Source of the DNA: Labilibaculum antarcticum
Lineage (GTDB): Bacteria; Bacteroidota; Bacteroidia; Bacteroidales; Marinifilaceae
DNA: 64,000 nucleotides
Assembly (NCBI RefSeq): GCF_002356295.1
Contig: NZ_AP018042.1
Coordinates: forward strand, 1,582,361 to 1,646,360
Reading direction: 5' to 3'
Shown here: positions 14,435-31,237 of the stretch, piece after piece
Position numbering within the stretch: the stretch's first letter is position 1
Layout: the number at the start of each line of letters is the position of its first letter
Notes under the pieces: generated by a model
Databases searched by the model: none
What the model saw: only the letters and a program-made list of their open reading frames with translations
What the model was told of the DNA's origin: nothing
Made by a program: the position numbers and the translations under genes

Positions 14435-14459
14435 ATAAGAAACTATTTCGTTTAAATAC

Positions 14460-15616: not shown

Positions 15617-15624
15617 TATTTTTG
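15617..15624 (+). promoter_or_regulatory. -7 promoter element of pssA
   Basis: TATTTTTG matches TAnnTTTG and lies 26 nt before the chosen pssA start. It falls inside the longer frame that opens at 15573, which supports the downstream ATG at 15651. Confidence 0.45.
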
Positions 15625-15650
15625 TGCGGTACTTTACAAAATTCTATTTC

Positions 15651-16406
15651 ATGTCAGAAGCAAAAGGGATTATCAAACACATTCCAAACTCAATTACTTG
15701 TTTGAACTTACTATCAGGATGTACAGCAAGCCTTATGGCTATGGAAGGCTATCTGATTTATGCGTCTTTTCTAATTCTTTTAGCGGCAGTATTCGATTTT
15801 TTTGACGGCTTAGCTGCTCGCACACTAAAAGCGTATTCTCCTATGGGAAAAGAGCTCGACTCACTCGCTGACATGGTTAGCTTTGGTTTTGCTCCTGGAG
15901 TTATTGCCTTGGCTTACCTAAAAGGTGCTGTTCTTGGCAGTGTTTCAGCAGATTTTATTCCCGCTGATTTAAGTTCTTTGCAAATAGTAATCTTATTATC
16001 CGCATTTATTATCCCAATATTTTCAGCCTTACGATTGGCTAAATTTAATGTAGACACCAGACAAACCTCCTCTTTTGTTGGCGTCCCAACTCCAGCAAAT
16101 GCTATGTTTTGGGCTTCTCTCCCACTGGTAATGTTCTATGGAGATTATCCATTAATTAAAGAATTATTATCTAATGAGTTCATTATAATTGGAGCTGTAC
16201 TAATAACATCTTACTTATTGGTTGCTGAAATTCCAATGTTTGCACTTAAAGTAAAAAACCTTGCCTGGAAAGAAAATAAAATACAATACTTGTTTCTAAT
16301 CAGCTTGCTAATTTTAGCAATACTTTTAAAATGGTTAGTGATTCCGATGATCTTATTCGTTTACATTATCTTCTCATTGATTAACAACATGATCAGTAAA
16401 AAATAA
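15651..16406 (+). CDS. pssA: CDP-diacylglycerol--serine O-phosphatidyltransferase PssA
   Basis: A membrane-bound CDP-alcohol phosphatidyltransferase of about 251 residues from the ATG at 15651 (MSEAKGIIKHIPN). An upstream frame from 15573 is unlikely because a -7 promoter element lies inside it. The catalytic signature DGx2ARx8Gx3Dx3D reads FDGLAARTLKAYSPMGKELD, continuing SLADMVSFG. About seven hydrophobic helices follow. It makes phosphatidylserine, the substrate of psd at 7.4 kb, using CDP-DAG from cdsA at 6.5 kb. Confidence 0.93.
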   Translation: MSEAKGIIKHIPNSITCLNLLSGCTASLMAMEGYLIYASFLILLAAVFDFFDGLAARTLKAYSPMGKELDSLADMVSFGFAPGVIALAYLKGAVLGSVSADFIPADLSSLQIVILLSAFIIPIFSALRLAKFNVDTRQTSSFVGVPTPANAMFWASLPLVMFYGDYPLIKELLSNEFIIIGAVLITSYLLVAEIPMFALKVKNLAWKENKIQYLFLISLLILAILLKWLVIPMILFVYIIFSLINNMISKK

Positions 16407-16431
16407 ACAAAGCTTTTTGCAGATACAAGAT

Positions 16432-16476
16432 AAAAAGAAGACTAAAATGATGATTTCATTTTAGTCTTTTTTCTTT
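16432..16476. terminator. Bidirectional terminator between pssA and CPBP gene
   Basis: An inverted repeat of about 19 bp (core GACTAAAATGA with TCATTTTAGTC) is flanked by an A-run on the left and a T-run on the right, placed between convergent stop codons. Confidence 0.85.
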
Positions 16477-16478
16477 GC

Positions 16479-17318
16479 CTATTCCACCTGTTTGCTTTTA
16501 CTAAAAAAATTCTCGAAGTAGCGGTACGAACCCCAAAGAATTGCCGAAGCAACAACAAACAATCCTATTCGTTCAAGGATTCCTATGTCAAAAAGCTCAA
16601 CAAGATCGAACGTATCGCTATAACGAACCATTAAATAAAAGGCAATGCCATTGTTCAAAGAGTGAATGAACATGCATAAAAACAACGATTTAGTTTTCCA
16701 ATAGAGGTAGCCAATTGCAATTCCCGCAATCATGGCGGTAATAAATTGCCATGGATTTAAGTGTATCACACCAAAAAATACTGAAGACCAAATAATGGCT
16801 TTCCATGGCGAATAGTTGCGCAATAAGCCATCTAGCACTATGCCGCGCATCAAGAGTTCTTCCAAAATGGGAGCAGCTACCACAACGGTCAAAAATCCCC
16901 AGATATTTGGCTGTAGCATTTCTTTAAACATCTCCATCAGAATATCGGGCATGGGTATCCAACTGCCAATTTCAGAATCGATAATGACGATTGCCAATGT
17001 CATAACAATTACGACAGGCAAAAGGACCGACGGAAAAGATTGAAGCTTGAGAACCTCAGTATTCCGAGGATTCTTTTTCCACCATCTTCCTGTGATAAAA
17101 ATTAGAATAATAACAGGTACGGCATAATTTAACACCAAAAAAGGACCGTGCTGAATATCAATGCCGAAAAGGCTAATCATTGTTAATGGAATAAAGTAAG
17201 CAAAGGTAATTGCTAAAAATAATCCAAGAATCCCCCATCCCTGTTTAATTGTTGGATAAGCCATTTCTGCTTCAAACTGTACTTCTTCAACTTTAGTTTC
17301 TTTTATAATTCCATTCAT
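16479..17318 (-). CDS. CPBP-family intramembrane glutamic endopeptidase
   Basis: A 279-residue polytopic membrane protein with about seven helices. The CPBP/Abi (CAAX protease-like) motifs are present: EELLMRG near residue 155 carries the catalytic Glu-Glu, and FGVIHLNPWQF supplies the His of motif 2. A later conserved stretch reads HSLNNG. The substrate is unknown; family members cleave within membranes or act in bacteriocin immunity. Its ATG overlaps the stop of the upstream DUF3857 gene by 4 nt, so the two are translationally coupled. Confidence 0.88.
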   Translation of the reverse strand: MNGIIKETKVEEVQFEAEMAYPTIKQGWGILGLFLAITFAYFIPLTMISLFGIDIQHGPFLVLNYAVPVIILIFITGRWWKKNPRNTEVLKLQSFPSVLLPVVIVMTLAIVIIDSEIGSWIPMPDILMEMFKEMLQPNIWGFLTVVVAAPILEELLMRGIVLDGLLRNYSPWKAIIWSSVFFGVIHLNPWQFITAMIAGIAIGYLYWKTKSLFLCMFIHSLNNGIAFYLMVRYSDTFDLVELFDIGILERIGLFVVASAILWGSYRYFENFFSKSKQVE

Positions 17319-19258
17319 TTTTCTGATATATTATCACTTTTTCTGATTATAACCTGAGCGCCCATTGTATCAATCATTTTACTGTAAAATTCTCTTAAAA
17401 CCTCGTAATACTCTTTCGTAAACGCCACCACATTTATGGAGAATGACGTTCGTACCGTTAGTTCCTTACCCAATAATTGAGAGCTAAGCTTAAAACTTCC
17501 TGAATCTTCCGGTAAAGCAATACTCTTGCCTTTTGGATAATCCTCAAACTGATATCCATCTGGAAGAATAAACTTCACCATATAAGTTTTGGTTCTAGGA
17601 TAATTGTAATCGATTCGGTATTGCCTTGTTTCTTTTAAGAATGGGTTTTTTAAATCCTTATTTTTAAACAGACTGATATATTTAAACTCAGTATCTTCAT
17701 CCAAACCATCCTCCAATTTTAAATTACACTCCATTTGCAATGAGAGATTCACGTTCTCTTCATTTTTAAATTGAAGCGAATCTACTTGAAAGTCAAACTT
17801 TTCAAGATCAAACAAATCAGACATCCATGTTTCAGAACCAGATTCAGCCAATTCTTTTCGGCTATTTGCCGCAAAATAACCTGTTTCCCGTAATTTTAAA
17901 CTACAAGTAGGTTTCAATAAATCAGAATAATCATAGGTTATAATTATATCCTCATGATTCTTATCATTGGGAACAATTTTAGCCCAATATGGTTTTTCTT
18001 TCCGCAATACAAAAGCATGAAAATTTAAGTCTTCTTCTGCAAGCAATCCATAAGGGCGATATGAAGATGTAGCATTCAGAAAATGTTGTTTGCCATATAG
18101 CTCTACGCACGCAAAAACCTGATCGAACTGACTTAACAACGGATAATCTTTTTGAATTAATCCACGGGTATTGGTTCTGGCCAAGGCAGGATTACACTCC
18201 AATCCTGCTTCACGCAAGAGCAGTACAAGTAAAAAATTAATTTCAGAATTAGTCCCTTCCTTCTCTTCCAATATATTGGGTGCTGATTTTACAGGATAAA
18301 TTCGATACTCACCATTCCATTTTACCTTAGTGCGAACAAAATCATAGATCTTTTCAATTTTCTCCCAATTGTTCTCATTTCCATCCAAAATAGTTTCCAA
18401 TTGTTTTTTTGCAAAACCCTTTCTTCCTAAAAACTGAATCCTTTCGATATATTCTTTGGCCAAGTTTTCATATGTCATCATCGAGTTTACAAATTTTGGA
18501 GAACCACCTCTGATACTTTCTTCTCGTGTATAATAACCTGCCAACTGAAAACGTATCTGCTCAACAAAATCATGATAACCATTCACATAAGCCTCTTCCT
18601 TTATCGACAACAAATTAGTCAAAATCCATTCATTTTCTTTGGAATCGGGATATTTCCCCTGAATTCTACTCCCAAACATTACCAAATTATATCGAAATGT
18701 CTCAGGCATATTTACTTTCAAAGAGCTATAAAAGGTCGGTATTTCATCTTGAAAATACCACGTGTCTAAATAAGAATAGAAATGAGAGCTCGTTTTGTAT
18801 TGGTATTCAATTATGGATCCCACTTTCACATTAGGCATTGTAAATCTCACTTCTCCATAATTCTCATTTACATCTACATCGAATATTGATTTTTTCGAAA
18901 TCTCACTAACTTCAGATTTACCCCGATCACTCAAATTAATTGTTTGTCCTTTTACTCCAGAAATATTTTCCAATTGATCTTTTCGATAGTAGGACAATTT
19001 AATATTCGCCTGATCAAATCCTTCCTCCTTTAATATTTTTATTCGCACATGATAAAAATAACGGATTGCTGTGTAACTCAAATCAACGGTACAAGTTCTA
19101 CTGAGAATAACCGCAGAAGCATCTTTTTCATAAGAACACTCTTCTAAGGCAAATTCATCTTTAGATATTTTACCATATCTAATTTTTTGTGCATTTAACG
19201 TACAGATAGTAAGCTGTGAAAAAATCAAGAGTAATACTAATCTTAAAATAGTTTTCAT
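17315..19258 (-). CDS. DUF3857 / transglutaminase-like exported protein
   Basis: A 647-residue protein with a signal peptide (about 1-23, ending TLNAQ). A DUF3857 domain follows (about 50-200, with MPNVKVGSIIEYQYKT), then a transglutaminase-like core (about 270-400, with IYDFVRTKVKWNGEYRIYP) and a C-terminal beta-rich domain. In active transglutaminases a Cys starts the helix before LLVLLLREAGL. Here the sequence is GTNSEINFLLV with no Cys, so enzymatic activity is unlikely. A binding or scaffold role is inferred. It overlaps the CPBP gene by 4 nt (ATGA). Confidence 0.85.
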   Translation of the reverse strand: MKTILRLVLLLIFSQLTICTLNAQKIRYGKISKDEFALEECSYEKDASAVILSRTCTVDLSYTAIRYFYHVRIKILKEEGFDQANIKLSYYRKDQLENISGVKGQTINLSDRGKSEVSEISKKSIFDVDVNENYGEVRFTMPNVKVGSIIEYQYKTSSHFYSYLDTWYFQDEIPTFYSSLKVNMPETFRYNLVMFGSRIQGKYPDSKENEWILTNLLSIKEEAYVNGYHDFVEQIRFQLAGYYTREESIRGGSPKFVNSMMTYENLAKEYIERIQFLGRKGFAKKQLETILDGNENNWEKIEKIYDFVRTKVKWNGEYRIYPVKSAPNILEEKEGTNSEINFLLVLLLREAGLECNPALARTNTRGLIQKDYPLLSQFDQVFACVELYGKQHFLNATSSYRPYGLLAEEDLNFHAFVLRKEKPYWAKIVPNDKNHEDIIITYDYSDLLKPTCSLKLRETGYFAANSRKELAESGSETWMSDLFDLEKFDFQVDSLQFKNEENVNLSLQMECNLKLEDGLDEDTEFKYISLFKNKDLKNPFLKETRQYRIDYNYPRTKTYMVKFILPDGYQFEDYPKGKSIALPEDSGSFKLSSQLLGKELTVRTSFSINVVAFTKEYYEVLREFYSKMIDTMGAQVIIRKSDNISEK

Positions 19259-19662
19259 AAGAAATGATTTAGAGGATTCAAAATAAACAGAATATTTATA
19301 CTTCTCACCTATCTAATCCTCTTTCTTCTCAAAATCTACTCAATATCAGTAATATAGAATTATTAAAAATTACAAAAACCACAGAACATAACAATTCAGA
19401 ACAAATTAAATCAAGAACTTTCCATGAATCAATGCGTAATAAACGGCATATGACTAATCGTTTTTACTGATTAGCCCAGTACTGCGAAAAACCTCTAATA
19501 GAATAAACCATAATTAAAAATATTGTTTTGTTTTATTTATTCCTGGCTATTTCTGCATGCTTTAAAGAAAAAACAAAGGTGAGATTTGGTTTGACTGCGC
19601 AAAAAAAGGGAACAACCTTCGTTATACTCTTTCCTATCCATTGTATAATTTCAATAGATTAA
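19259..19662. other. Intergenic region downstream of DAHP synthase gene
   Basis: A 404-nt AT-rich spacer between the start of the DUF3857 gene and the stop of the DAHP synthase/chorismate mutase gene, both on the minus strand. It should hold the DUF3857 promoter. I see no ORF, terminator or repeat that I can defend. Confidence 0.4.
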
Positions 19663-20751
19663 TTATTTTCGATTCATTACTTCATTTTGTTTCAAGATGG
19701 CTTCCTTATGAATCATTCGCAATAATTGCGTCAGGAACGGTTCTGACAGCCCTAAGGATTTTCCCAATTCAACTCCCTTTTCACGTACCTTTTCCCATCG
19801 TTGAAGTTGAAGAATTGTCATATTCTTCTCAGCCTTATATTCGCCAATTCCCTCAACAATATTCATCCGTTGTGCAAGTAATTCTATCAACTGAGAATCC
19901 ACAGAATCTATTTGGTCGCGATACTTTTCAAGTCGGTTTTCTGTAATATCATCAACAGAAGGCAGTCGGCAAACCAAACTCCTTACTATCAGATCTAAAT
20001 CCGCAGGTGTTAATTGGTCTTGATCCCTTATCACATCAGCAGTGTTAAAATGGCTATCAATCATCAAACCATCCATATTCAAGTCCATTGCCTTTTGCGC
20101 CATTTCCTGAACATATTTGTTTGCTCCAGCAATATGACTGGGATCACAGATAATAGGAAGATTATGAAATCGTGATTTTAATTCGATAGGAATTTCCCAT
20201 TTAGGAATGTTACGAAGTCTTGTTTTTTCGAATGGATAAAATCCTCTGTGAATAGCAGCTAATCTGGAAATACCTGCTTTATTAATTGTTTCCAAAGCCT
20301 CAATCCATAAATTAATATCAGGATTTATTGGATTCTTTACCATTACCGGAACACTCATTCCCTGCATAGCACTAGCCAGTTCCTGAACAGAGAAAGGGTT
20401 GGAGCTCGTTCTTGCGCCAATCCATAAAATATCAACATTATGCCTTAAACACATTTCAACATGCTTTGGTGATGCCACCTCAACCATTGTAAGCAAACCT
20501 GTTTCCTGCTTTACTTGATTCAACCATTGTAAAATATCTAAACCTCTATCTCCATAAGTTTTAGTTGCGGTTTGCGGCTTCCATACACCCGCTCGAAATA
20601 TTTTAACCTGATCTACTTTTTTAAGTTCTCTGGCAGTATTCAATAATTGTTCTTCTGACTCGACAATCGAGGGACCACTTATCACTATTGGTCTTGTATC
20701 CAATTTTTTAAACCAAGTATTCATTGGTTTACAATTCTCCAATCCACTCAT
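19663..20751 (-). CDS. Bifunctional DAHP synthase / chorismate mutase (AroQ type)
   Basis: A 362-residue fusion. The N-terminal part (about 1-255) is a KDO8P/type-Ibeta DAHP synthase that condenses PEP and erythrose-4-phosphate at the shikimate entry. Motifs seen are ISGPSIVES, KIFRAGVWKPQT, LLTMVEVASP, IGARTSSNPFSVQ, MVKNP and IICDPSHIAG. The C-terminal part (about 270-355) is an AroQ chorismate mutase helical domain (LEKYRDQIDSVDSQLIELLAQRM, MTILQLQRWEKV). Such fusions are common in Bacteroidota, and the mutase domain often provides feedback control. It stands alone here, away from other aromatic genes. Confidence 0.93.
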   Translation of the reverse strand: MSGLENCKPMNTWFKKLDTRPIVISGPSIVESEEQLLNTARELKKVDQVKIFRAGVWKPQTATKTYGDRGLDILQWLNQVKQETGLLTMVEVASPKHVEMCLRHNVDILWIGARTSSNPFSVQELASAMQGMSVPVMVKNPINPDINLWIEALETINKAGISRLAAIHRGFYPFEKTRLRNIPKWEIPIELKSRFHNLPIICDPSHIAGANKYVQEMAQKAMDLNMDGLMIDSHFNTADVIRDQDQLTPADLDLIVRSLVCRLPSVDDITENRLEKYRDQIDSVDSQLIELLAQRMNIVEGIGEYKAEKNMTILQLQRWEKVREKGVELGKSLGLSEPFLTQLLRMIHKEAILKQNEVMNRK

Positions 20752-20860
20752 ATCTTCATTTTAAGGCTGATTAATATCAAAGCTGATAGTAATCACCACA
20801 AAAATACACTTTTAAATGACATCGGGAAATGCACAAAAGAGAATTAACATCTGTGACTTA

Positions 20861-21220
20861 TTAAAGTGAAAAAATCCAGCTTATAAAATCCACTCCATCA
20901 TATTTAAGAATACTTTCATTTGTAGCAAGCCAGATTAATCCATTTCTATCTTCTTCTATATCTCCTACTTCATTAACGACTAGTCCGTCCTTTTCCGTCA
21001 AGGAACTCCATTCTCCACCTTTCTTTATACTAATCCCTGACTCTGTTCCTATCCATAAGTTATTTTTACTATCCTCAAAAATAACTTGAACCCAAGAACC
21101 AATCAAACCATTGTCCCCAGTGTTAGTTGTTGCATAATCCAAATTGATCCACTTATCCTGAGCTGAAATGCTAAAAAGGTTTATAAAACCTAATAAAAGA
21201 AGAAGTAAAGTTTTTTTCAT
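20861..21220 (-). CDS. Short exported protein with two Reg_prop-like repeats, probable fragment
   Basis: About 119 residues from the Met at 21220 (MKKTLLLLLL), or 123 from 21232. A signal peptide is followed by two repeats of the two-component regulator propeller type: VIFEDSKNNLWIGTESGISIKK and IEEDRNGLIWLATNESILKYDG. Full propellers have about 14 such repeats; here the frame stops after the second (SWIFSL). The usual continuation with a YYY domain, kinase and AraC domains is absent in the 109 nt before the next gene. It is probably a decayed remnant, but expression as a small protein cannot be excluded. Confidence 0.55.
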   Translation of the reverse strand: MKKTLLLLLLGFINLFSISAQDKWINLDYATTNTGDNGLIGSWVQVIFEDSKNNLWIGTESGISIKKGGEWSSLTEKDGLVVNEVGDIEEDRNGLIWLATNESILKYDGVDFISWIFSL

Positions 21221-21232
21221 GTCAAGGGTCAT

Positions 21233-21872
21233 TCAATATTTACTTAAAGATATTTATTTTACACTAAACAGCTATAATTCATCAGCTTAGAATTAAAATG
21301 AATTGTTTGACAAAATCTTCCAGATAACATAGGTGAAAAAATTGCAATAAGAAAAACATCATCCCTATAGATATATTTTATACAGTCATATAGAAAATCA
21401 ATAAATATTTAATTCACAACCAGTTGATGCACCAATAAGAAAACAAATAATCTTCAAACTCATTGATTTTAAAGGTCTCCAATAATATGCAGCTGCTTAT
21501 TGCTAATTCATGTGTTTTATTTCACGTAATATCTAAAATCACCAGCCACCACCACTTTACATTAATTAAGATCCACTTAATCAATGCATTAACACTACCT
21601 ACTCCTAACAATAGTAGAAACACATTAAAATCAGTCAATTACCGGCCCATTTTGAGAGACCTGTAAAATGGAATTATTTATTTATATTTGAGTTACCACG
21701 CAATCGTATGTGAAACATAAAAGGATTAAACAATCACAGGTTAAATGGCCTGAACCCGATGATCTTAAATGCTTATTTAGAATCATTTAAAAGAGTGTTT
21801 TTATTCTCATTTTAATTTCTTTCCGTTCGGTAAAATGGATATACTAAAACAGAAAACTAACCTAATTGCATA
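21233..21872. other. Long leader/intergenic region before the Fe-S/NrfD/cytochrome module
   Basis: A 640-nt AT-rich region between divergent genes with no convincing ORF. The plus-strand -7 element at 21683-21690 implies a leader of about 175 nt before the Fe-S gene. The leader has a GC-richer core (about 21740-21762, GGTTAAATGGCCTGAACCCG) that could fold, but I do not recognise a riboswitch class. Confidence 0.45.
21683..21690 (+). promoter_or_regulatory. -7 promoter element upstream of the Fe-S/NrfD/cytochrome module
   Basis: TATATTTG matches TAnnTTTG. A TTTG lies at 21651-21654, but the 28-nt spacing is too long, so the -33 element is uncertain. Confidence 0.45.
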
Positions 21873-22808
21873 ATGAAAGAAGAAACATCAAACAACAGCA
21901 GACGAAAGTTCCTAAAAAGTGTTGGACTTACCGTTGGTGCTGCCGGTGTTGTTAGTGGATTTTCTCTTCTTGGCGCAGCAAAGGCTGTAGCACAAGAACC
22001 AGGAGAAACTGTAAATCTGTTAACACAAGATGGACAACTTGTTCAAGTTGATAAAAATCAATTGCGCCCAACAGTAAGCGAACCTCTTACTGAATTGCAA
22101 AAAAGAGGCCGTGAAGGCATTGCTGGAAAATCTTTTGTAATGGTAATTGATCTTAGTAAATGTCGAAATGCAAGAAAATGTATGGATGCATGTCAAAATC
22201 ATCACCAGCTAAGACCCGATCAACACCATATTAATGTTCTTCAAATGCAGGATGCAGAACACACTGCTCCTTATTTCATGCCAAAACCTTGTCAACATTG
22301 CGATAATCCTCCTTGTACCAAAGTTTGCCCTGTTGATGCAACTTTTAAACGTCAGGATGGAATTGTTTTGATCGATAATGAAAGATGTATTGGTTGCAGA
22401 TTCTGTATTGCAGCTTGCCCATACTCAGCGCGTATTTTCCAATGGACAGAACCTAAGGATGCTGAAAAATATAAAGACCTCACCTACAATATCGAAGCTA
22501 ACGTTCCTCAAAAGAAAGGTACCATAAGCAAGTGTTTGTTTAGCGCCGACAGACTTCGCGAAAACAAACTTCCTTCTTGCGTATCTTCCTGTCCGAATGG
22601 CGTTTACTATTTTGGTGATCAAAATGAAGATGCTGTTACAAACGGAACGACTCACGAAACCGTTCGTTTTTCTCAATTGATAGAAGAAAATGCAGGATAT
22701 ACGCTGTTGCCGGAGTTAGGAACGAAACCTCGCGTTTACTACCTGCCTCCTAAAAACAGAGCTTTTGAGTTTAATGGTGATCTTCTAAATGAAGAAAATC
22801 TTCATTGA
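21873..22808 (+). CDS. Tat-exported four-cluster Fe-S protein (PsrB/NrfC/ActB-like)
   Basis: A 311-residue electron-transfer protein. The twin-arginine signal (SRRKFLKSVG) sends it across the membrane folded. Four Fe-S motifs follow. II (CQHCDNPPCTKVCP) and III (CIGCRFCIAACP) are complete. Motif I reads CRNARKCMDAC and motif IV CLFSADR...CVSSC; both lack only their second Cys (Ala and Ser instead). Motifs I and IV normally pair, so two clusters may have three Cys ligands. NrfD-like and cytochrome c genes follow, with no molybdopterin subunit. It probably carries electrons from the NrfD quinol site to the cytochrome (inference). Confidence 0.88.
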   Translation: MKEETSNNSRRKFLKSVGLTVGAAGVVSGFSLLGAAKAVAQEPGETVNLLTQDGQLVQVDKNQLRPTVSEPLTELQKRGREGIAGKSFVMVIDLSKCRNARKCMDACQNHHQLRPDQHHINVLQMQDAEHTAPYFMPKPCQHCDNPPCTKVCPVDATFKRQDGIVLIDNERCIGCRFCIAACPYSARIFQWTEPKDAEKYKDLTYNIEANVPQKKGTISKCLFSADRLRENKLPSCVSSCPNGVYYFGDQNEDAVTNGTTHETVRFSQLIEENAGYTLLPELGTKPRVYYLPPKNRAFEFNGDLLNEENLH

Positions 22809-22876
22809 AAACATTGATTTCACTTTCAAAAAACAACTAATAAACAGATTTTATTTGCCCTAAATAATTTAATCTT

Positions 22877-24217
22877 ATGAATGACTTACCAAAACAGAAA
22901 GAAACAACTCTTTCGTTTGAAAAGATCAAAGAAGACATTCTACGTCCAATGCAAAACCACAAAGGATTAGAACTTTGGATTGCGTTCCTAATAACAGTAA
23001 TTAGTGTCTGCGCCTGGGCGTACTACGTACAATTACGCGATGGATTGGGAGTTACCGGTATGCGTGATTACGTATCCTGGGGACTTTACATTGCCAACTT
23101 TGTGTTTTTTGTTGCCGTAAGTTTGGTTGGAATGCTTATTTCGTCGATTCTGGGTTTGCTCCGAATAGAATGGATCACGCCGATATCAAGAATTGCTGAA
23201 ATAATAGCCGTAGCTTTTGTTGCAGTTGCTGGTTTAGTAATTATAATGGATATGGGACGCCCCGACAGAGTCGTTAACGTACTCATCCATGGTCGCTTCC
23301 AATCTCCAATTCTTTGGGATATAACCGTAGTAACAACATACTTGGTAATAAGTGTCTTACTACTGATTCTACCCATGATTCCCGATTTGGCGATCTGTAA
23401 GAATGAGTTGAAGAAAACTTCTCCTGTTCTGAAAAAGCTGTACAATATTCTATCATTTGGTTACATTAACACACCTAGTCAGCACAAGCATTTACACAAA
23501 ATGATTAGAACATTAATGGTAATAATTGTTCCGGTAGGTTTGGCAATTCACACAGTAACTTCCTGGCTGTTTGCGGCAACTTTGCGTAACGGCTGGGATA
23601 CAACAATTTTTGGACCTTATTTCGTTGCAGGTGCATTTGTAGCTGGTTCTGCAGCCTTAGTCGTTGCCATGTATTTTTTCCGGGTTAGTTATAAGCTTCA
23701 GGATTATATTACTGATTTACAATTTGATAAAATGGGCAAGCTAATGGTAGCTGTTTGTTTGGTGTACTTGTACTTTAACCTGAATGAATTTTTAGTTCCG
23801 GGTTATAAGATGAAAACCGGAGATGACATTCACCTAAAAGAATTGTTTACAGGTCATTGGGCCATAATGTTCTGGTCTTCACAATTATTAGGAAATATCA
23901 TTCCAGTTATGCTATTGGTTACAAAAAAATTCAGGAAGCCATTACCGCTAATGATTATTTCACTTTTCATTTTGGCTGGAGCCTGGATTAAAAGATATGT
24001 AATTGTTATTCCAACATTACTTCATCCACATTTACCCATTCAGAATGTACCCGATAATTTTGTACACTACTATCCTTCCGCAATAGAAATTTCGGTAACT
24101 GTTTTAAGTTTTGCCTTGGCACTCTTGATTATCACAGTTTTATCTAAAATTTTCCCGATTGTACCAATTTGCGAAACTGCCGACAATAATGGAATTGATT
24201 ACAAAATTGATGCTTAA
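22877..24217 (+). CDS. NrfD/PsrC (ActC-like) quinone-interacting membrane subunit
   Basis: A 446-residue polytopic protein with about ten transmembrane helices, of the NrfD/PsrC family. The sequence GLYIANFVFFVAVSLVGMLISS and the C-terminal GAWIKRYVIVIPTL resemble the ACIII subunit ActC encoded at 46.2-47.6 kb (which has GMWFERFVIIVTSL). NrfD proteins oxidise or reduce quinones and pass electrons to an attached Fe-S subunit. It lies 68 nt after the Fe-S gene and 12 nt before a cytochrome c gene. That context suggests quinol oxidation coupled to cytochrome c reduction. Confidence 0.88.
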   Translation: MNDLPKQKETTLSFEKIKEDILRPMQNHKGLELWIAFLITVISVCAWAYYVQLRDGLGVTGMRDYVSWGLYIANFVFFVAVSLVGMLISSILGLLRIEWITPISRIAEIIAVAFVAVAGLVIIMDMGRPDRVVNVLIHGRFQSPILWDITVVTTYLVISVLLLILPMIPDLAICKNELKKTSPVLKKLYNILSFGYINTPSQHKHLHKMIRTLMVIIVPVGLAIHTVTSWLFAATLRNGWDTTIFGPYFVAGAFVAGSAALVVAMYFFRVSYKLQDYITDLQFDKMGKLMVAVCLVYLYFNLNEFLVPGYKMKTGDDIHLKELFTGHWAIMFWSSQLLGNIIPVMLLVTKKFRKPLPLMIISLFILAGAWIKRYVIVIPTLLHPHLPIQNVPDNFVHYYPSAIEISVTVLSFALALLIITVLSKIFPIVPICETADNNGIDYKIDA

Positions 24218-24229
24218 AAGACAAAGACA

Positions 24230-25150
24230 ATGAAAAATGCTATCAAAATAATTGCCTGCCTATTTCTAGTTTTCACCTTCACAACTGCTGTTGTAAAGGC
24301 CGAAGAATGGTCGGTTCCGGCATCTGCAAAAAAGAAGCAAAACCCATACGAGGCCAGCACTAAAAATATAAGCTCAGGTAAAAAGATTTACAATATTAAT
24401 TGCAAGTCCTGTCATGGTGATGCTACCCTAGGAAACATGTTGCCTCTTCAACCAGTTGCTCCTTCCGATTTAGGATCGCAAGCTTTTTTAATACAGACTG
24501 ATGGAGAAATATATTACAAGGTAAACAAAGGCAATGGAGCAATGCCAACTTTCGAAAAAACCTTAAGCGACGAGGACAAATGGATGGTAATTACCTATCT
24601 GCGATCTTTCGACCAAAACAAAAAGGCAAGTAAGAAAATTGCTGAAGTAATAAACCCTGAAGTAAACGATGTTAGAATTCTTTTGGACATTAATAAAGAG
24701 GATAAACGAATTATCGCAAACCTCTCGGGACTTACGAAAAAAGGAGATCGCGTAGCCTTGCAGGGCATTGAACTAAGCATAAAAGTTAAAAGAAGCTTTG
24801 GATATTTAGATATCTCGGGCGACGATGCATACACCAACGAAAAAGGTGAAGTTAATGTTCAATTTCCAGAAGATTTACCAGGCGATCGTGAAGGACATGT
24901 AGATCTTTTAGTTAAAGTTACCGATGATGCCTATTACGGAGAAGTGAATGTTGACAGGATTGCTAGTCTGGGATTACCAACCGACCCGGTAAATCCGTTA
25001 GACGAAAGAGCTATGTGGGGAACCAGAGCGAATGCTCCTATTTGGATTGTTTTAAGCTATGTGGGTGGAGTAATCAGCATTTGGGGTGTTATATTCCTTG
25101 TACTTTTTCAACTGATGAAATTACCTAAGTTGGCAAAAACCGAGGAGTAA
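24230..25150 (+). CDS. Membrane-anchored monoheme cytochrome c with Ig-like domain
   Basis: A 306-residue protein. A signal peptide (about 1-24) is followed by a class I cytochrome c domain (about 40-130) with a single CxxCH (CKSCHGD) and likely Met ligand in GNGAMPTF. A beta-rich Ig-like segment (about 135-250) follows, then one C-terminal transmembrane helix (about 270-292) with a short cytosolic tail. The third gene of the Fe-S/NrfD/cytochrome unit, it could pass electrons to the cbb3 oxidase encoded just downstream. I know of no described complex with this exact architecture, so the role is inferred. Confidence 0.87.
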   Translation: MKNAIKIIACLFLVFTFTTAVVKAEEWSVPASAKKKQNPYEASTKNISSGKKIYNINCKSCHGDATLGNMLPLQPVAPSDLGSQAFLIQTDGEIYYKVNKGNGAMPTFEKTLSDEDKWMVITYLRSFDQNKKASKKIAEVINPEVNDVRILLDINKEDKRIIANLSGLTKKGDRVALQGIELSIKVKRSFGYLDISGDDAYTNEKGEVNVQFPEDLPGDREGHVDLLVKVTDDAYYGEVNVDRIASLGLPTDPVNPLDERAMWGTRANAPIWIVLSYVGGVISIWGVIFLVLFQLMKLPKLAKTEE

Positions 25151-25153
25151 AGT

Positions 25154-25285
25154 TTACTTGGCACCCTCATCTTTCTTTGATTTTGGTGAACGCCCTAACT
25201 TATATAGCAGGTATCCCATTCCCACTAAAAAGTGTAAAGCTGTAATTCCAGCAACAATGTAAATAAGAGTTGAATCGTTATTCAT
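25154..25285 (-). CDS. 43-residue single-TM small protein, antisense between cytochrome c and ccoI
   Basis: An ATG at 25285 opens a 43-codon frame ending TAA at 25154. The product starts MNNDSTLIYIVAGITAL, continues HFLVGMGYLLYKLG and ends in a hydrophilic basic/acidic tail (SPKSKKDEGAK). That is one clean transmembrane helix with an N-out, positive-inside pattern. It fills almost the whole 167-nt gap between two plus-strand genes. Its composition is that of a real small membrane protein rather than chance. A role near the oxidase is possible, but the strand is opposite and no family is recognised. Confidence 0.55.
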   Translation of the reverse strand: MNNDSTLIYIVAGITALHFLVGMGYLLYKLGRSPKSKKDEGAK

Positions 25286-25317
25286 ATCTAATAATTTAAG
25301 ACTGAGAGGTCTGCAAG

Positions 25318-27804
25318 ATGGCTAAAATACAGGAAGAAACAAAAAAACACATTTGTGTGCACTGCGGCGATGACTGTGGTTCACATCCCGTTATTTGGGA
25401 TGAGAAGCCATTTTGTTGCAATGGCTGTTCTACTGTATATCAAATTCTGCACGAAAATGAACTTTGTACCTATTACGATTTTGAATCCAACCCAGGAATT
25501 AAGATTGAATCAGGAAAATACAAGGAGAAATTTGCTTTTTTAGACGATGATGAAATTGCTGATCAACTTTATGAATTCTCTGAAGGAAATATCCGTAAAC
25601 TAAGCTTTTATATCCCAAGCATACATTGTAGTTCCTGTATTTGGTTGCTCGAACATCTTAGTATTTTGAATCAGGGAGTTATTAAATCGATGGTTAATTT
25701 CGTTAAAAAGGAAGTATCCATTACTTTCAATTCCGATGAGATTTCCATTCGGGAATTGGCTGAACTGCTATCTTCAATTCATTATATTCCTGAAATCACA
25801 TTGGATAAACTGCAGGAAAAACAAAATGAAGGTGTAAACAAAAAGCTTCTATATAAAATTGGTATTGCTGGATTTTGTTTTGGAAACATCATGCTTTTGA
25901 GCCTGCCTGAATATGTACCAGGCCACGAGTATTTGGAAGCTCATTTCAAAGAATTCTTTGGCATGATGAATTTCTTTCTCGTTTTACCTGTTTTCTTTTA
26001 CAGCGGAAGTGATTATCTATTATCTGCCGGTAAAGCAATAAAACACAAATTCATTAATATTGATGTTCCTATTTCAATGGGAATATTGATGCTATTTATT
26101 CAAAGTAGCATAGAGATTTTTACACAAACTGGTTCGGGCTACATGGATTCCCTTACCGGATTAATCTTTTTCCTTTTAATTGGAAAATGGTATCAGAACA
26201 GAACCTATCAAGCTCTTTCATTCGAACGGGATTACCGTTCCTATTTTCCGGTTGCGGTTAGTAAATTGAATAAAGGCATTGAGGTAAGCACTCCAATCGA
26301 AAAGTTACAAAAAGGCGATATCATATTAATCCGAAATCAGGAATTGATTCCTGCTGATAGTGTATTAATTAAGGGAGAAGCCCAAATTGATTACAGCTTT
26401 GTAACCGGTGAATCGAAACCAGTATTTAAAGAAAGCGGAGATCATATCTTTGCTGGTGGTAAGCAAATGGGAAGTGCCATTGAATTAACAATTGAAAAAG
26501 ATGTAATTCAAAGTCGATTGACTCAATTGTGGAATCAATTTGAAGGGACAGAATCTTCAAGCACCAAGCTTAACTCATTAATTGATCAAATTAGTAAATA
26601 TTTCACCATAGCGATTATTGCCATTGGAATGTTTGCTGGTATTTATTGGTTGTTGAATGATTCTACAAAAGCACTTTTTGCTTTCACATCAGTTTTAATT
26701 GTTGCCTGCCCTTGCGCTTTGGCTCTTTCAGCTCCGTTCGCTTTAGGAAATACCATGCGATTAATGGGAAGAATGGGCATCTATCTAAAAAGCTCCGACG
26801 TAGTTGAAAAATTGAATTCAATTACAAGCATTGTGTTTGACAAAACCGGAACGATAACACAAGCCGACGAAGTAAAAGTTAATTTTCATGGAGATGCATT
26901 AAGTGATACTGATAAAATCGCAGTAAAATCGTTAACAAGACATTCTACACATACGCTAAGTTCCACCTTGTATGAGTATTACAAAAGCATTCCACCTGAA
27001 ACCGTTGTAGACTATAAAGAATTGCCTTCAATGGGAATTTCAGGCACAATTAATGGCCGAAAAATCAAACTGGGCTCCGCTAAATTTATTCATGAGGGGA
27101 ATACCGAAACCAGTTCGCTAAATACAGAAGTTTACCTTTCGGTAGATGGAAAAATCAAAGGACATTTCGCGTTGAGTAATCAATACAGATCTGGTTTATC
27201 GGAACTCATAAATGGATTAGCACTCAAGTATGATTTGCACGTTCTTTCGGGAGACAATGATTCGGAGATGGAAAACTTGAAGCAGATATTTCCTAGCAAA
27301 TCAATTATTCGCTTCAATCAGTCGCCAAACGATAAATTAGAATACATCAATAATTTAAAGAAAGAAAATAAGCGTGTTCTGATGATTGGTGATGGATTAA
27401 ATGATGCCGGCGCTTTAAAAACAAGTGATGTAGGAATTTCAATAGCAGATGACATTTACCATTTTTCACCTGCTTGCGATGCCATTCTGGAAGCTTCAAA
27501 ATTTCAACAATTAAAGTACTTCCTAAAAATATCAAGGAAAAGTGTTTTAGTCGTAAAACTAAGTTTTGTACTCTCTTTTCTTTACAATTTATTTGGCTTG
27601 TATTTCGCAGTACAAGGTGTATTATCTCCAATTGTTGCAGCATTGTTGATGCCAATTAGTTCCATTTCGGTAGTGGCATTTGCAACTTTTACAACCAATT
27701 ATATTGCAAGATCAAAAGAGACTAACAATAAATCAAATAACGAATCAGTAGTAGAGTTTGCTAAAACAATCTCTTCATCGAGAAAACCGGTTCAACTAAA
27801 TTAA
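25318..27804 (+). CDS. ccoI: Copper-translocating P1B-type ATPase for cbb3 assembly (CcoI/FixI)
   Basis: An 828-residue heavy-metal P-type ATPase that exports copper for the cbb3 active site. A Cys-rich N-terminal domain (CVHCGDDCG and FCCNGCSTVYQIL) is typical of FixI/CcoI. It is followed by an HMA-like domain with IHCSSCIWLLEHL. The core has the TGES loop, the membrane metal site ACPCALALS, the phosphorylation site FDKTGT and the hinge GDGLNDAGAL. About eight transmembrane helices are expected. It starts the cco run and is separated from ccoS by 7 nt. Confidence 0.94.
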   Translation: MAKIQEETKKHICVHCGDDCGSHPVIWDEKPFCCNGCSTVYQILHENELCTYYDFESNPGIKIESGKYKEKFAFLDDDEIADQLYEFSEGNIRKLSFYIPSIHCSSCIWLLEHLSILNQGVIKSMVNFVKKEVSITFNSDEISIRELAELLSSIHYIPEITLDKLQEKQNEGVNKKLLYKIGIAGFCFGNIMLLSLPEYVPGHEYLEAHFKEFFGMMNFFLVLPVFFYSGSDYLLSAGKAIKHKFINIDVPISMGILMLFIQSSIEIFTQTGSGYMDSLTGLIFFLLIGKWYQNRTYQALSFERDYRSYFPVAVSKLNKGIEVSTPIEKLQKGDIILIRNQELIPADSVLIKGEAQIDYSFVTGESKPVFKESGDHIFAGGKQMGSAIELTIEKDVIQSRLTQLWNQFEGTESSSTKLNSLIDQISKYFTIAIIAIGMFAGIYWLLNDSTKALFAFTSVLIVACPCALALSAPFALGNTMRLMGRMGIYLKSSDVVEKLNSITSIVFDKTGTITQADEVKVNFHGDALSDTDKIAVKSLTRHSTHTLSSTLYEYYKSIPPETVVDYKELPSMGISGTINGRKIKLGSAKFIHEGNTETSSLNTEVYLSVDGKIKGHFALSNQYRSGLSELINGLALKYDLHVLSGDNDSEMENLKQIFPSKSIIRFNQSPNDKLEYINNLKKENKRVLMIGDGLNDAGALKTSDVGISIADDIYHFSPACDAILEASKFQQLKYFLKISRKSVLVVKLSFVLSFLYNLFGLYFAVQGVLSPIVAALLMPISSISVVAFATFTTNYIARSKETNNKSNNESVVEFAKTISSSRKPVQLN

Positions 27805-27811
27805 ATAGAAA

Positions 27812-28024
27812 ATGAGTGTATTGTTCGTTTTAATTGGTGCTAGCATGCTCGTGGCCGGAGGATTTCTGATCGCATTTCTTTGGGCTGTGAAAAAAGGACA
27901 ATATGATGATACTTATTCTCCATCTGTTCGGATTTTATTCGACGATCAGGAAAAAGAAGCACAAAAAAAAGAAAAAGAACAACAAATAGAAAAGGAAACA
28001 ACTAAGAAAAACCATAAATCTTAA
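27812..28024 (+). CDS. ccoS: cbb3 oxidase maturation protein CcoS
   Basis: A 70-residue single-TM protein. The N-terminal helix MSVLFVLIGASMLVAGGF is followed by FLWAVKKGQYDD, a CcoS hallmark. A highly charged Lys/Glu tail (about 45-66) ends it. CcoS is needed to insert heme and copper into the cbb3 catalytic subunit. It lies between ccoI and ccoNO with gaps of 7 and 4 nt, so the three are surely co-transcribed. Confidence 0.93.
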   Translation: MSVLFVLIGASMLVAGGFLIAFLWAVKKGQYDDTYSPSVRILFDDQEKEAQKKEKEQQIEKETTKKNHKS

Positions 28025-28028
28025 TTTA

Positions 28029-30158
28029 ATGGAAACACAACATTTTTCGTACGATAACAAAATCGTGAAATTTTTCGCCTACGCAACCATTATTTGGGGA
28101 GTAGTTGGAATGTCGGTAGGGCTTTTGGCAGCCTTACAATTGGCATTCCCGATTTTCAATTTCAACTTCGCCTACACTTCTTTTGGTAGAATTCGTCCAG
28201 TTCATACCAATGCGGTAATTTTCGCATTTGTAGGGAATGGAATATTTACCGCAGTATATTATTCTCTTCAGCGCTTGCTTAAAGCCAGAATGTTTAATGA
28301 CAGACTGAGTTGGATCCATTTTTGGGGTTGGCAAGCCATTATCGTTTCGGCTGCAGTAACCTTTGTTTTAGGGATCACAACAAGTAAAGAATACGCTGAG
28401 CTGGAATGGCCAATCGATATTGCTCTGACTATAATTTGGGTTGTTTTTGGTTGGAACATGTTTGGTACCATTTTAAGAAGAAGAGCCGATCACTTGTATG
28501 TGGCCATTTGGTTCTATATAGCCACTTTTGTTACCGTTGCCGTTCTTCATATTGGTAATTCTATTGCCTTGCCATATAGTTGGATTCAATCTTATCCGGT
28601 TTACGCAGGTGTTCAGGATGCCTTGGTACAATGGTGGTACGGACACAATGCGGTTGCCTTCTTTCTGACCACTCCATATTTAGGATTGATGTACTATTTC
28701 TTACCTAAAGCTGCTAATCGTCCCATATATTCGTATCGCTTATCGATCATTCACTTCTGGGCATTAATATTCCTATATATCTGGGCTGGTCCTCATCACT
28801 TACTTTATACTGCTTTACCAGATTGGGCACAATCATTGGGTGTTGTTTTCTCAATTATGCTTCTTGCTCCATCGTGGGGAGGTATGTTTAACGGGTTGCT
28901 AACACTTCGTGGCGCCTGGGATAAAGTTCGCGATAGCGCAACCTTAAAATTTATGGTTGTAGCAGTAACCTGTTACGGTATGTCCACTTTCGAGGGACCA
29001 ATGATGGCTCTTAAATGGGTAAACTCATTAACTCACTATACCGACTGGACAATTGCTCACGTTCACATTGGCGCAATGGGCTGGAATGGATTCCTAACAT
29101 TCGGAATGTTGTACTACCTATTCCCAAAAATGTGGAATACAAAATTGTATTCAGAAAAATTAGCCAATGCACACTTCTGGATTGGCACATTAGGAATGAT
29201 TTTTTATGCTCTTCCTTTATACTGGGGAGCTATTGTTCAAACCTTAATGTGGAAAGAATTTACTCCCGATGGATTACTGGCTTATCCTAATTTCTTAGAG
29301 ACTCTCACACAGATTTTACCTATGTATCATGCAAGGGTGTTTGGCGGACTTCTTTATTTCTCCGGATTATTCTTAATGGTTTACAATCTATTGAAAACTG
29401 CAGCATCAGGTAAATGTGTAGATAATGAAGAAGCTTCGGCTCCTGCGATTGTTACCGACACAAAACGTGGTCAAAGCGAAGGTTTACACCGTTGGTTAGA
29501 AAGAAAGCCTATTCAATTTATGATTTTAGCTACTGTTGCGATCTTAATTGGTGGTGCATTCGAAATTATTCCTACTTATTTAATCAAATCAAATATTCCG
29601 ACAATCGAGAGCGTAAAACCATACACTCCTCTGGAGTTACAGGGGCGGGACATCTATATCCGCGAAGGCTGTAACACTTGTCACTCTCAAATGGTTCGAC
29701 CATTCCGTTCGGAAACAGAACGATATGGTGAGTATTCCAAAGCTGGGGAATCAGTTTACAATCATCCACACTTGTGGGGATCGAAACGTACCGGACCCGA
29801 TTTGGCTCGCGAGGGGGTTCCTGGTGGAAAAATGTACAAGACTAATGTTTGGCACTATAACCACATGTTGGATCCACAAAAAATGAATGCTCAATCCATC
29901 ATGCCAAAATATCCTTGGCTGATAAAAGATAAGTTGGATATTTCATCGACTCCTGCAAAAATTCGAGCGATGACTACCTTAGGTGTTCCTTATGCGCCAG
30001 GTTACGATCAGCTTGCAAATGATGATTTACAAAAACAAGCAGAGGAAATTGCTGCCGATCTTAAAAATTCAGGTGTTGAAGTAGCAAGTGACAAAGAAAT
30101 ACTCGCTATAATTGCCTATTTGCAACGTTTGGGTCGGGATATTTCAGTTGGAAACTAG
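28029..30158 (+). CDS. ccoNO: cbb3 oxidase subunits I and II fused (CcoNO)
   Basis: A 709-residue fusion. Residues about 1-470 are the C-type heme-copper oxidase catalytic subunit CcoN with about twelve helices and the His ligands of hemes b and CuB (RPVHTNAV, WWYGHNAVAFF, GPHHLLYTA, AHVHIGAMGW). Residues about 500-709 are CcoO: one helix, then a cytochrome c domain with CNTCHSQMVRPF and a likely Met ligand in SIMPKYPW. The fusion is usual in Bacteroidota. The enzyme reduces oxygen with high affinity and pumps protons. Confidence 0.96.
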   Translation: METQHFSYDNKIVKFFAYATIIWGVVGMSVGLLAALQLAFPIFNFNFAYTSFGRIRPVHTNAVIFAFVGNGIFTAVYYSLQRLLKARMFNDRLSWIHFWGWQAIIVSAAVTFVLGITTSKEYAELEWPIDIALTIIWVVFGWNMFGTILRRRADHLYVAIWFYIATFVTVAVLHIGNSIALPYSWIQSYPVYAGVQDALVQWWYGHNAVAFFLTTPYLGLMYYFLPKAANRPIYSYRLSIIHFWALIFLYIWAGPHHLLYTALPDWAQSLGVVFSIMLLAPSWGGMFNGLLTLRGAWDKVRDSATLKFMVVAVTCYGMSTFEGPMMALKWVNSLTHYTDWTIAHVHIGAMGWNGFLTFGMLYYLFPKMWNTKLYSEKLANAHFWIGTLGMIFYALPLYWGAIVQTLMWKEFTPDGLLAYPNFLETLTQILPMYHARVFGGLLYFSGLFLMVYNLLKTAASGKCVDNEEASAPAIVTDTKRGQSEGLHRWLERKPIQFMILATVAILIGGAFEIIPTYLIKSNIPTIESVKPYTPLELQGRDIYIREGCNTCHSQMVRPFRSETERYGEYSKAGESVYNHPHLWGSKRTGPDLAREGVPGGKMYKTNVWHYNHMLDPQKMNAQSIMPKYPWLIKDKLDISSTPAKIRAMTTLGVPYAPGYDQLANDDLQKQAEEIAADLKNSGVEVASDKEILAIIAYLQRLGRDISVGN

Positions 30159-30367
30159 ATATGAGATTTAAAATATGAGAATTGAGAAAAATACTCTTAT
30201 AATTATTTTATCTCACTTCTCATATCTCTCATCTAAAACGAATAAATATGGAACGTCAATGATTAAATAATTATTAACTCACATACGAGAATGATTATTT
30301 ACTCATAGAAAGTTCTCCCGATAAATCGGGACAGGCTATCTGACCATAAAATAAAAAATATAAACAG
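30159..30367. repeat. Repeat-derived spacer between ccoNO and ccoQ
   Basis: A 209-nt gap inside the cco operon. It holds an imperfect inverted repeat (ATATGAGATTTAAAATATGAG near 30160 and CTTCTCATATCTCTCATC near 30217) and the palindrome TCCCGATAAATCGGGA near 30318. Both resemble widespread Bacteroidota intergenic repeats; no ORF is present. Confidence 0.45.
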
Positions 30368-30568
30368 ATGAAAATAGTTAGTCATTATTTACAGGGAATT
30401 GCAGATGTAGGATTTTTCCCAAGCATCTCTTTACTGATTTTCTTCCTGTTTTTTATAGGAATGCTTTGGTGGGTTTTTAGAAAAAGCAACAAAGAATTCT
30501 TTACAAAAATGGAAAGTTATGCCCTTGACGAGGATGGTGTAAATCCATCATCGGAAGCAAAAGAATAA
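30368..30568 (+). CDS. ccoQ: cbb3 oxidase small subunit CcoQ/subunit IV
   Basis: A 66-residue protein with one transmembrane helix (about 17-37, LLIFFLFFIGMLWWVF) followed by RKSNKEFF and an acidic tail. This is the usual pattern of CcoQ, which stabilises the cbb3 complex. It ends one nucleotide before the longest ccoP frame and 22 nt before its likely ATG. Confidence 0.85.
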   Translation: MKIVSHYLQGIADVGFFPSISLLIFFLFFIGMLWWVFRKSNKEFFTKMESYALDEDGVNPSSEAKE

Positions 30569-30590
30569 ATTGGCCCAAAATCGAGATAAA

Positions 30591-31157
30591 ATGGAGAAAA
30601 AAGATAAATTCTTAGAAGAAAACGAGCATCTAATGAGCGATCATGATTATGATGGAATTAGAGAATTAAACAACCCAATGCCAACATGGTGGCGTTACTT
30701 ATTCTATATCACAATCATTTTTTCAGCAGTATACATGTTTCGTTATCATGTGTTTGGTGACGATTTACAAATAGATGAATACAATAAAGAAATGGCTCTT
30801 GCCGAAGCTAATAAACCGAAGGCTTCCTTTGATGAAAACGCACTTGTTCTAATGACAGATGCAGGAAATCTTGGAAAAGGAAAAGCCATTTACGACAAAA
30901 ACTGCATTGCCTGCCATGGAACTGTAGGTGAAGGAAATGCAATTGGACCAAACCTTACCGACAAATATTGGTTGAATGGTGGCAGTCTTAAAGATGTTTA
31001 CCAAATCATTAAAATAGGAAAACCTATGAAGGGTATGTTAGCCTGGCAAAACCAATTATCGCCTGAACAGATGCTTCAAGTTACCAGCTATACTTTGAGC
31101 TTGCAAGGAACAAATCCGGCAAACGGAAAAGAGGCTCAAGGTGAATTGGCAGAATAA
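30591..31157 (+). CDS. ccoP: cbb3 oxidase subunit III, monoheme CcoP
   Basis: About 188 residues from the ATG at 30591; the longer frame begins with a TTG at 30570. It has an N-terminal CcoP segment (YDGIRELNNPMPTWWRYLFYITIIFS) that includes the single TM helix. One cytochrome c domain follows with a single CxxCH (CIACHGT) and likely Met ligands (PMKGMLAW). Proteobacterial CcoP carries two hemes; this one has one, as in many Bacteroidota. It accepts electrons from soluble or membrane cytochromes. Confidence 0.93.
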   Translation: MEKKDKFLEENEHLMSDHDYDGIRELNNPMPTWWRYLFYITIIFSAVYMFRYHVFGDDLQIDEYNKEMALAEANKPKASFDENALVLMTDAGNLGKGKAIYDKNCIACHGTVGEGNAIGPNLTDKYWLNGGSLKDVYQIIKIGKPMKGMLAWQNQLSPEQMLQVTSYTLSLQGTNPANGKEAQGELAE

Positions 31158-31237
31158 TATGTAAGCTTCAAGCTATTAGTTACAAGCTTCGAGTAATTCA
31201 ACTTGGAGCTTATAACCAATTCATAAATAAAACAATA

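Follow-up and report, generated by a model that had tools for sequence, protein, structure and literature searches.

Three genes that stand directly before the genes of a cbb3 oxidase in Labilibaculum antarcticum raise the question of how electrons from menaquinol reach that oxidase. Two kinds of complex III are generally recognised, cytochrome bc and alternative complex III (ACIII). The genes occupy positions 21873-25150 of the window, by which we mean the whole stretch of 64,000 nucleotides that was analysed (contig NZ_AP018042.1, positions 1,582,361 to 1,646,360 of the forward strand). They encode an exported iron-sulfur (Fe-S) protein, a NrfD-family membrane protein, and a membrane-anchored monohaem cytochrome c, and are here called the triad. 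The triad probably forms a minimal menaquinol:cytochrome c oxidoreductase that works with whichever acceptor the genes after it encode, a reading to which we assign a probability of roughly 0.8.

The Fe-S subunit gene (21873-22808, + strand) encodes 311 residues with the twin-arginine translocation (Tat) motif SRRKFL and four ferredoxin-type motifs. It is followed after 68 bp by the gene of the NrfD-family subunit (22877-24217, +; 446 residues; PF03916 at 131 bits, with a cut-off of 25.8), and after a further 12 bp by the cytochrome gene (24230-25150, +; 306 residues; one CxxCH; PF13442). An earlier note on this DNA had proposed a Tat-exported Fe-S protein, an NrfD protein and an anchored monohaem cytochrome at 21873-25150, and three open reading frames on the + strand lie at exactly these positions. 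The note also had the triad leading into ccoI-S-NO-Q-P-G-H, and this order holds. A gap of 167 bp, in which no terminator-like site is listed, separates the cytochrome gene from ccoI (25318-27804, +), a heavy-metal/copper P-type ATPase identified by NCBIfam. Then come a ccoS candidate of 70 residues (27812-28024, +) and the ccoNO fusion (28029-30158, +; NCBIfam), the catalytic part of the cbb3 oxidase and the presumed electron acceptor. A ccoQ candidate of 66 residues (30368-30568, +) follows; like ccoS it is named by size and position only. The row continues with the monohaem ccoP (30570-31157, +; Pfam FixP_N; listed start codon TTG), ccoG (31238-32638, +; NCBIfam), ccoH (32768-33214, +; Pfam FixH), and a gene for a membrane protein assigned to the DsbD_2 family by domain match (33302-34063, +). 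No molybdopterin protein was found among the scanned reading frames of the triad and cco genes, and none is adjacent in the window, as had been claimed. A scan for sigma-70 promoters over 21200-34200 gave 44 matches, as against 42.5 in shuffled sequence.

The cytochrome subunit combines a signal peptide, a class I haem domain (C58xxC61H62, Met105), an Ig-like domain and a C-terminal transmembrane (TM) helix. In the predicted model (mean predicted local distance difference test score 88.4), the haem domain covers residues 31-125, a β-sandwich 146-245 and a long C-terminal helix 271-305, which bears out the Ig-like and TM segments noticed earlier. A Foldseek search with this model returned chain E of ACIII at ranks 2, 18 and 23 (6lod, 8k9e and 6f0k), with a root mean square deviation above 8 Å over the aligned stretch. 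Fused cytochromes of this type are present in 88 of the 112 copies that have the Fe-S gene. All 89 fused copies carry a single haem motif, and 85 of the 89 the Met motif. Where the cytochrome is unfused, in the loci that were read, one gene encodes the haem domain and another the Ig-like anchor.

The Fe-S subunit contains 14 cysteines in its motifs rather than the usual 16, since motif I reads CxxAxxC and motif IV reads CxxS. Of the 101 copies that fit the search pattern, 100 have lost the second cysteine of motif I; the pattern missed 11 of the 112 Fe-S proteins, nine of which show CxxA by eye (that of locus L118 is cut off after it), while two printed the wrong stretch. In motif IV, the second cysteine is serine in all 88 copies with a fused cytochrome. 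Among the 24 copies without one it is cysteine in 21, serine in two, and unread in one. Serine outside the fused class occurs in L123 and L110, and in L110 a reading frame of 129 residues separates NrfD from a fused cytochrome gene of the ordinary kind. The best NCBIfam match of the subunit is DsrO (182.6 bits, below the cut-off of 200). We also considered whether the protein might be a relative of ActB, the 1008-residue Fe-S subunit of the ACIII encoded in the window, through a shared loss of cysteine. Motif III, however, reads CIGCRFC in the triad and CIGTRYC in ActB, with threonine in place of cysteine, and the proposal was rejected because different motifs are altered (I and IV versus III).

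A simple count gives 10 hydrophobic segments in the NrfD subunit. Its residues D125, S143, D148 and R373 do not vary among 29 diverse copies and align with H139, S164, D169 and Arg395 of Rhodothermus marinus ActC. Roles for the ActC quinol-site residues and for Arg395 are given in the part of PMC8076601 available to us, which also lists an aspartate at the H139 position in DsrP, QrcD, TtrC and the PsrC of Wolinella. Proton pumping by the triad NrfD is possible, judging by the alignment of R373 with Arg395. The best NCBIfam match is DsrP (154.1 bits, below the cut-off of 350). In one relative (G036, C4:118395-119671), an NrfD copy of about 56% identity, which is in the range of the Nap-linked copies described below, is broken by an in-frame TAG.

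Relatives of the triad were found in the same order before oxidase genes. Among 56 genomes of the same family, 24 have an NrfD match, and a close orthologue (at least 84% identity, by reading of the match table) is present in 22, that of G030 being in two pieces. In 10 of 10 family regions (the window and nine regions of 20 kb) the triad precedes the cco genes in the same order, and the linkage is therefore more than chance. In 10 family regions, a second paralogue (about 55% identity) stands before napA, napG, napH-like and napB-like genes. NCBIfam matches establish napA and napG in one locus, and the other Nap loci were called by similarity to that locus; the napB candidate is named by two haem motifs and its position, with no NCBIfam match at threshold, and the napH candidate by position and similarity to CcoG. 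Because these genes follow NapA, the adjacent triad looks like the electron donor of Nap.

A wider NrfD search gave at least 582 relatives, of which the best 80 were kept as named loci and do not form a random sample; the titles of these 80 carry Bacteroidota or Chlorobi names, or read "uncultured bacterium". Sixty-three of the named-locus NrfDs have at least 6 kb of sequence downstream. Their partners are coxA of an A-type (caa3-like) oxidase in 33, cbb3 in 11, Nap in eight, EB_dh/DUF5777 in five, and others in six. The coxA class was assigned by BLAST and position, with a gene-by-gene Pfam check in one locus, that of Geofilum (L142), where the triad is followed by SCO-COX1-COX3-COX4-COX2/cytochrome c-UbiA; the first following gene (145 residues) has no Pfam match. 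Geofilum rubicundum, a cultivated bacterium, has the triad and gave neither an ACIII nor a cytochrome b match. ACIII genes in other bacteria occupy a similar place before A-type oxidase genes. One such case is Melioribacter, with ACIII at Mros0045-0040 and CoxI at MROS_0038 (PMC3534657 and PMC5492636, in the parts available). Across 296 genomes sampled evenly from the phylum, members of the close subfamily are rare: besides the host, seven matches at 48-54% identity occur in six genomes, one further NrfD match stands at 39%, and the other listed matches lie at or below 35%.

These counts bear on two claims of the earlier note. The view of the triad as a molybdenum-free quinol:cytochrome c oxidoreductase for the adjacent oxidase is strongly supported by the comparison of genomes, and the suggested search of other Bacteroidota did find the triad linked to cco genes in 11 of the 63 loci; the module is, however, not specific to cbb3, and the A-type oxidase is its commonest partner in the loci examined. 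Nor is the triad found mainly beside a molybdopterin subunit, since only eight of the 63 stand beside NapA, and one further copy lies upstream of a NarGH-like pair. This last copy (L162, positions 10001-21341, in a metagenome-assembled genome named Odoribacter sp.) is followed by a two-haem cytochrome of 288 residues before the NarGH-like genes; the two-haem protein has a weak BLAST match to ActA, and Pfam reads it as Cytochrom_C. In L091, ActA/ActB-like genes lie farther from the triad. Boxes of the FNR type (TTGA-N6-TCAA) upstream of the Fe-S gene were at about shuffle level across the partner classes (cbb3 0 of 22, coxA 1 of 34, Nap 0 of 18, EB_dh/DUF5777 0 of 14, other 0 of 20).

Some unfused loci have other neighbours. 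In L061 (11815-15142) and in L062, of the same family, an unfused triad is followed by a protein of 565 residues with 13 TM segments, which has no Pfam or NCBIfam match at the thresholds used, and by a six-haem NapC/NirT-like protein of 501 residues. Unfused triads beside genes for a DUF5777 β-barrel, an EB_dh domain or a small cytochrome occur in L064, L066-L069, L144, L154, L157, L159, L161, L163 and L164. These triads possibly form an electron route towards the outer membrane.

A tree of the NrfD proteins was calculated with 46 of 115 triad rows; the diverged L063 and L150 and the E. coli rows, which have very long branches, were left out. ActC and DsrP each form one group (100/100 for both), and the triad NrfD shares about 30% identity with ActC and does not group within that clade. 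Counting the rows with a recognised partner, the cbb3-, coxA- and Nap-linked copies form one group each (92/94, 99/95 and 99/100), and the Nap-linked copies stay together when partnerless rows are counted as well. The copies with a fused cytochrome form one group except for L123, whose next gene encodes a haem protein of 149 residues. From this partner-wise grouping, the choice of partner looks old and fairly stable.

The grouping also bears on the alternative that comes closest to the oxidoreductase reading, namely that the triad is a general periplasmic quinol dehydrogenase, a hub of the SirCD/Cbc4 kind serving a shared cytochrome pool, and that its adjacency to oxidases reflects co-regulation only. 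The available part of PMC11434368 attributes such a role to SirCD and CbcSTU, and related copies do stand beside Nap, EB_dh/DUF5777, the NarGH-like genes of L162 and the six-haem NapC-like protein of L061. On the other hand, copies with a recognised partner sort by that partner in the tree, and four genomes (G001, G040, G049 and G050) carry separate cbb3-linked and Nap-linked copies, which favours dedicated pairing. We regard the hub as a possibility to be kept in mind, though one with appreciably less than an even chance.

The presence of ACIII was tested for 74 of the 80 named loci, in sets of 50 and 24 genomes, leaving out L094, L137, L138, L146, L150 and L158. The first 50 genomes were chosen by hand and without the family of the host, in which ACIII occurs widely; L085 and L086, among the 24, apparently duplicate G035 and G001, judging by identical positions. 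COX1, ActC and PF13631 were tested in the 50, and the genome lists for the combined counts were compiled by hand. ActD was found in eight of the 50 triad genomes (42 had no match), and in 19 of 74 after the 24 were added. True ActC, 51-64% identical to that of the window, is present in the same eight, so that the ActC (at least 51%) and ActD calls agree in 50 of 50. By partner, ActD occurs in 2 of 36 coxA-linked, 7 of 13 cbb3-linked and 7 of 7 EB_dh/DUF5777-linked genomes. The difference between the coxA-linked genomes and the other triad genomes (17 of 38) gives p = 0.0001, a value not corrected for kinship.

A cytochrome b match was found in 15 of the 50 genomes, seven strong and eight weak. 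The strong matches have Rieske-size and octahaem neighbours in the two that were inspected. The weak matches are open frames of about 900 residues, and the one inspected has 11 haem motifs; in this protein (L197, 7472-10165; 898 residues), the N-terminal part matches the cytochrome b profile. Oxidase subunit I is present in 48 of the 50, excluding matches at the level of nitric oxide reductase. The triad and an oxidase thus occur together, with neither ACIII nor a strong cytochrome b match, in 35 of the 50 genomes, and with no cytochrome b match of any kind in 30. Among the coxA-linked genomes, 28 of 36 (24 of 32 and 4 of 4) lack both ACIII and cytochrome b (PF00033).

The host itself is better equipped. 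As the earlier note stated, the window also holds a complete ACIII (43899-51779, -), comprising ActA, ActB, ActC, ActD, ActF and an ActE-type cytochrome; the subunits were assigned with Pfam except ActF, which has no Pfam match and is named by position and a weak NrfD-type match. The multihaem ActA of this separate complex is at 50625-51779 (-). An A-type (caa3-like) oxidase locus with SCO, COX1, COX3, COX2 with a cytochrome c domain, and a UbiA-family gene (36065-41283, +) has no triad in front. Before it lies the gene of a monohaem class I cytochrome c of 143 residues (35419-35850, -), with a lipoprotein-like N terminus and no hydrophobic TM segment by count, which might carry electrons to the oxidases. 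A LipL32 domain gene (34148-34834, -; PF12103, a spirochaete surface lipoprotein family; 262 bits) also lies between the cbb3 and caa3 loci. Outside the window, at 3.99 Mb of the host genome, a cytochrome b gene stands beside Rieske-type and octahaem proteins (L201, 3789-7854, -; "Rieske" as read from sequence), and this cluster is a possible further quinol-oxidising complex. The triad had been called a second quinol route next to ACIII; given this cluster, it is probably the third.

Such a host lends some weight to another alternative, in which ACIII is the main donor and the triad is an auxiliary branch that protects against over-reduction, or that feeds cbb3 only at very low oxygen. In the host the triad precedes the cbb3 oxidase and not the A-type oxidase, ACIII is present as well, and ActD is kept in 20 of the 22 triad genomes of the family. 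The two exceptions are a genome that is 63% complete and the single-contig G026, which has cytochrome b. For the host, the auxiliary role is compatible with the oxidoreductase reading. As a general account it leaves the 28 coxA-linked genomes that have neither ACIII nor cytochrome b unexplained, and we consider it rather doubtful. Because the triad coexists with ACIII in the host family, its reading as a replacement of ACIII is limited to other lineages.

Two further alternatives fare poorly. That the triad is an assembly or maturation factor delivering haem or copper to the oxidase is very improbable, for although it adjoins ccoI, a maturation gene, its NrfD has 10 segments with conserved quinol-site positions, its cytochrome is of class I with a Met motif, it also stands beside Nap, which has no haem-copper centre, and in many genomes it is the only candidate complex III found. 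Just as hard to credit is an orphan of a Psr-, Ttr- or Nrf-type molybdoenzyme with its catalytic subunit encoded elsewhere: such enzymes typically have subunits of the Fe-S and NrfD families, but the fused cytochrome takes the place of the catalytic subunit in most copies with an Fe-S gene, and of the three NrfD-family matches in the host genome (one contig of 5.72 Mb; the triad NrfD, ActC and a copy in L081), the last belongs to a separate locus at 4.16 Mb, with a Tat protein of 745 residues that was not scanned and an Fe-S protein of its own.

Several observations weigh against the oxidoreductase reading itself. The top structural match of the cytochrome is not ACIII but a soluble cytochrome c552. 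Three of the four proposed quinol-site positions are kept in NrfD, and the fourth, D253 of ActC, is replaced by Leu231; D125 is also absent from the diverged copy L063. The triad forms one group against ActC and DsrP with weak support (77/75), and partnerless rows sit among the cbb3 and coxA rows, which raises the number of partner changes from one to two and four, respectively. No partner was recognised for 23 of 114 extracted copies, in some cases through the end of a contig. With ACIII and the Rieske/cytochrome b cluster in the host, cbb3 might be fed mainly by something other than the triad. ACIII persists in nearly all triad genomes of the host family, and G026, the only single-contig family genome without it, has a cytochrome b. 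Finally, most genomes without ACIII are metagenome assemblies whose completeness is not stated.

If the triad works as an oxidoreductase, family and residues suggest that menaquinol would be oxidised by NrfD at the periplasmic side, with S143 and D148 in the pocket. Motifs II and III presumably hold the membrane-proximal clusters and motifs I and IV the distal ones, as in NarH/PsrB-type subunits. Electrons would then enter the Fe-S subunit through the clusters of motifs II and III, whose ligands are intact, and pass to those of motifs I and IV. Because one cysteine is replaced in each of the latter, altered clusters are predicted at this exit end, probably high-potential [3Fe-4S] or serine-ligated ones, although cluster types and spatial order are deduced rather than observed. 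The His/Met haem of the anchored cytochrome would be reached next and, as the linkage suggests, the CcoP/CcoO haems after it, directly or by way of a small cytochrome c. In related bacteria this module may feed Cox2 of A-type oxidases, standing in for ACIII or cytochrome bc, or may feed Nap.

A broader statement, to which we give somewhat better than even odds, is that the triad represents a third, independently assembled complex III beside cytochrome bc and ACIII. It would be the sole quinol:cytochrome c oxidoreductase of many Bacteroidota, perhaps proton-pumping through NrfD, with unusual high-potential exit clusters, and evolutionarily paired with A-type oxidase, cbb3 or Nap. The triad bears on how the oxidases are supplied with electrons in the 35 genomes without ACIII or strong cytochrome b. 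If the statement is true, it would be a very small complex for this function, and the respiratory annotation of environmental Bacteroidota, aerobic as well as microaerobic, would change. In so simple a setting, the triad NrfD would also help to settle whether proteins of this family pump protons.

With cytochrome bc1/b6f the triad shares neither cytochrome b nor the Rieske protein. The description "ACIII-like" in the earlier note is apt as regards the work done: there is an NrfD-type quinol subunit, an Fe-S wire, a monohaem cytochrome, and a location near oxidase genes. It does not hold as regards membership. The triad operon lacks ActD, ActF and the molybdoenzyme-like N-terminal half of ActB, its NrfD lies outside ActC, and its Fe-S protein departs from the standard ligands in other motifs than ActB does; no penta- or hexahaem ActA was found in the triad operon, or between triad and partner in the loci that were read. 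An ActC-like NrfD has been proposed in place of complex III in SAR324 (PMC4782131, available part). Other NrfD gene clusters unlike the described complexes are reported from Planctomycetota and KSB1 in the available part of PMC10732223; these include ActD, a multihaem cytochrome and another quinone-binding subunit and look like full ACIII. A complex of Fe-S protein, NrfD and monohaem cytochrome is not among the known NrfD complexes listed in the portion of PMC8076601 at hand, and no description of the triad was found in the open-licence literature of PubMed Central, as far as its texts were available; subscription papers and preprints were outside this scope.

By its parts the triad resembles NrfCD and SirCD, where an exported four-motif Fe-S protein stands beside an NrfD-family protein with no molybdopterin subunit; the quinol-site residues of NrfD are conserved in the triad apart from the leucine at the equivalent of ActC D253. 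NrfCD units without a molybdenum subunit are presented as multifunctional quinol:acceptor reductases (PMC3534657, in part), and SirCD and CbcSTU donate quinol electrons to periplasmic acceptors (PMC11434368, in part). In Shewanella and E. coli, SirCD and NrfCD serve anaerobic acceptors and multihaem cytochromes according to the same portions of these two papers, whereas the triad brings its own anchored monohaem cytochrome of class I and is linked to aerobic oxidases. DsrMKJOP supplies the best NCBIfam matches of the Fe-S and NrfD subunits, each below its curated cut-off, but DsrO, in the five sequences aligned, retains the cysteines of motif IV and, with a residue inserted, those of motif I, unlike the triad, and the trihaem DsrJ differs from the class I monohaem cytochrome. 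Cbc4 (CbcSTU) of Geobacter was compared by description and not by sequence. As described in the text available, it likewise consists of three genes for a c-type cytochrome, an Fe-S protein homologous to DsrO and a membrane protein; it differs in that CbcS is likened to a protein of the cytochrome c3 family, the figure legends present CbcU as a b-type cytochrome, and metal reduction is the task of the complex. On the best reading, then, the triad is not an ACIII and is built from a kit of the NrfCD/SirCD/Cbc4 type. It is a new variant in kind rather than a new category, and a real and recurrent system.

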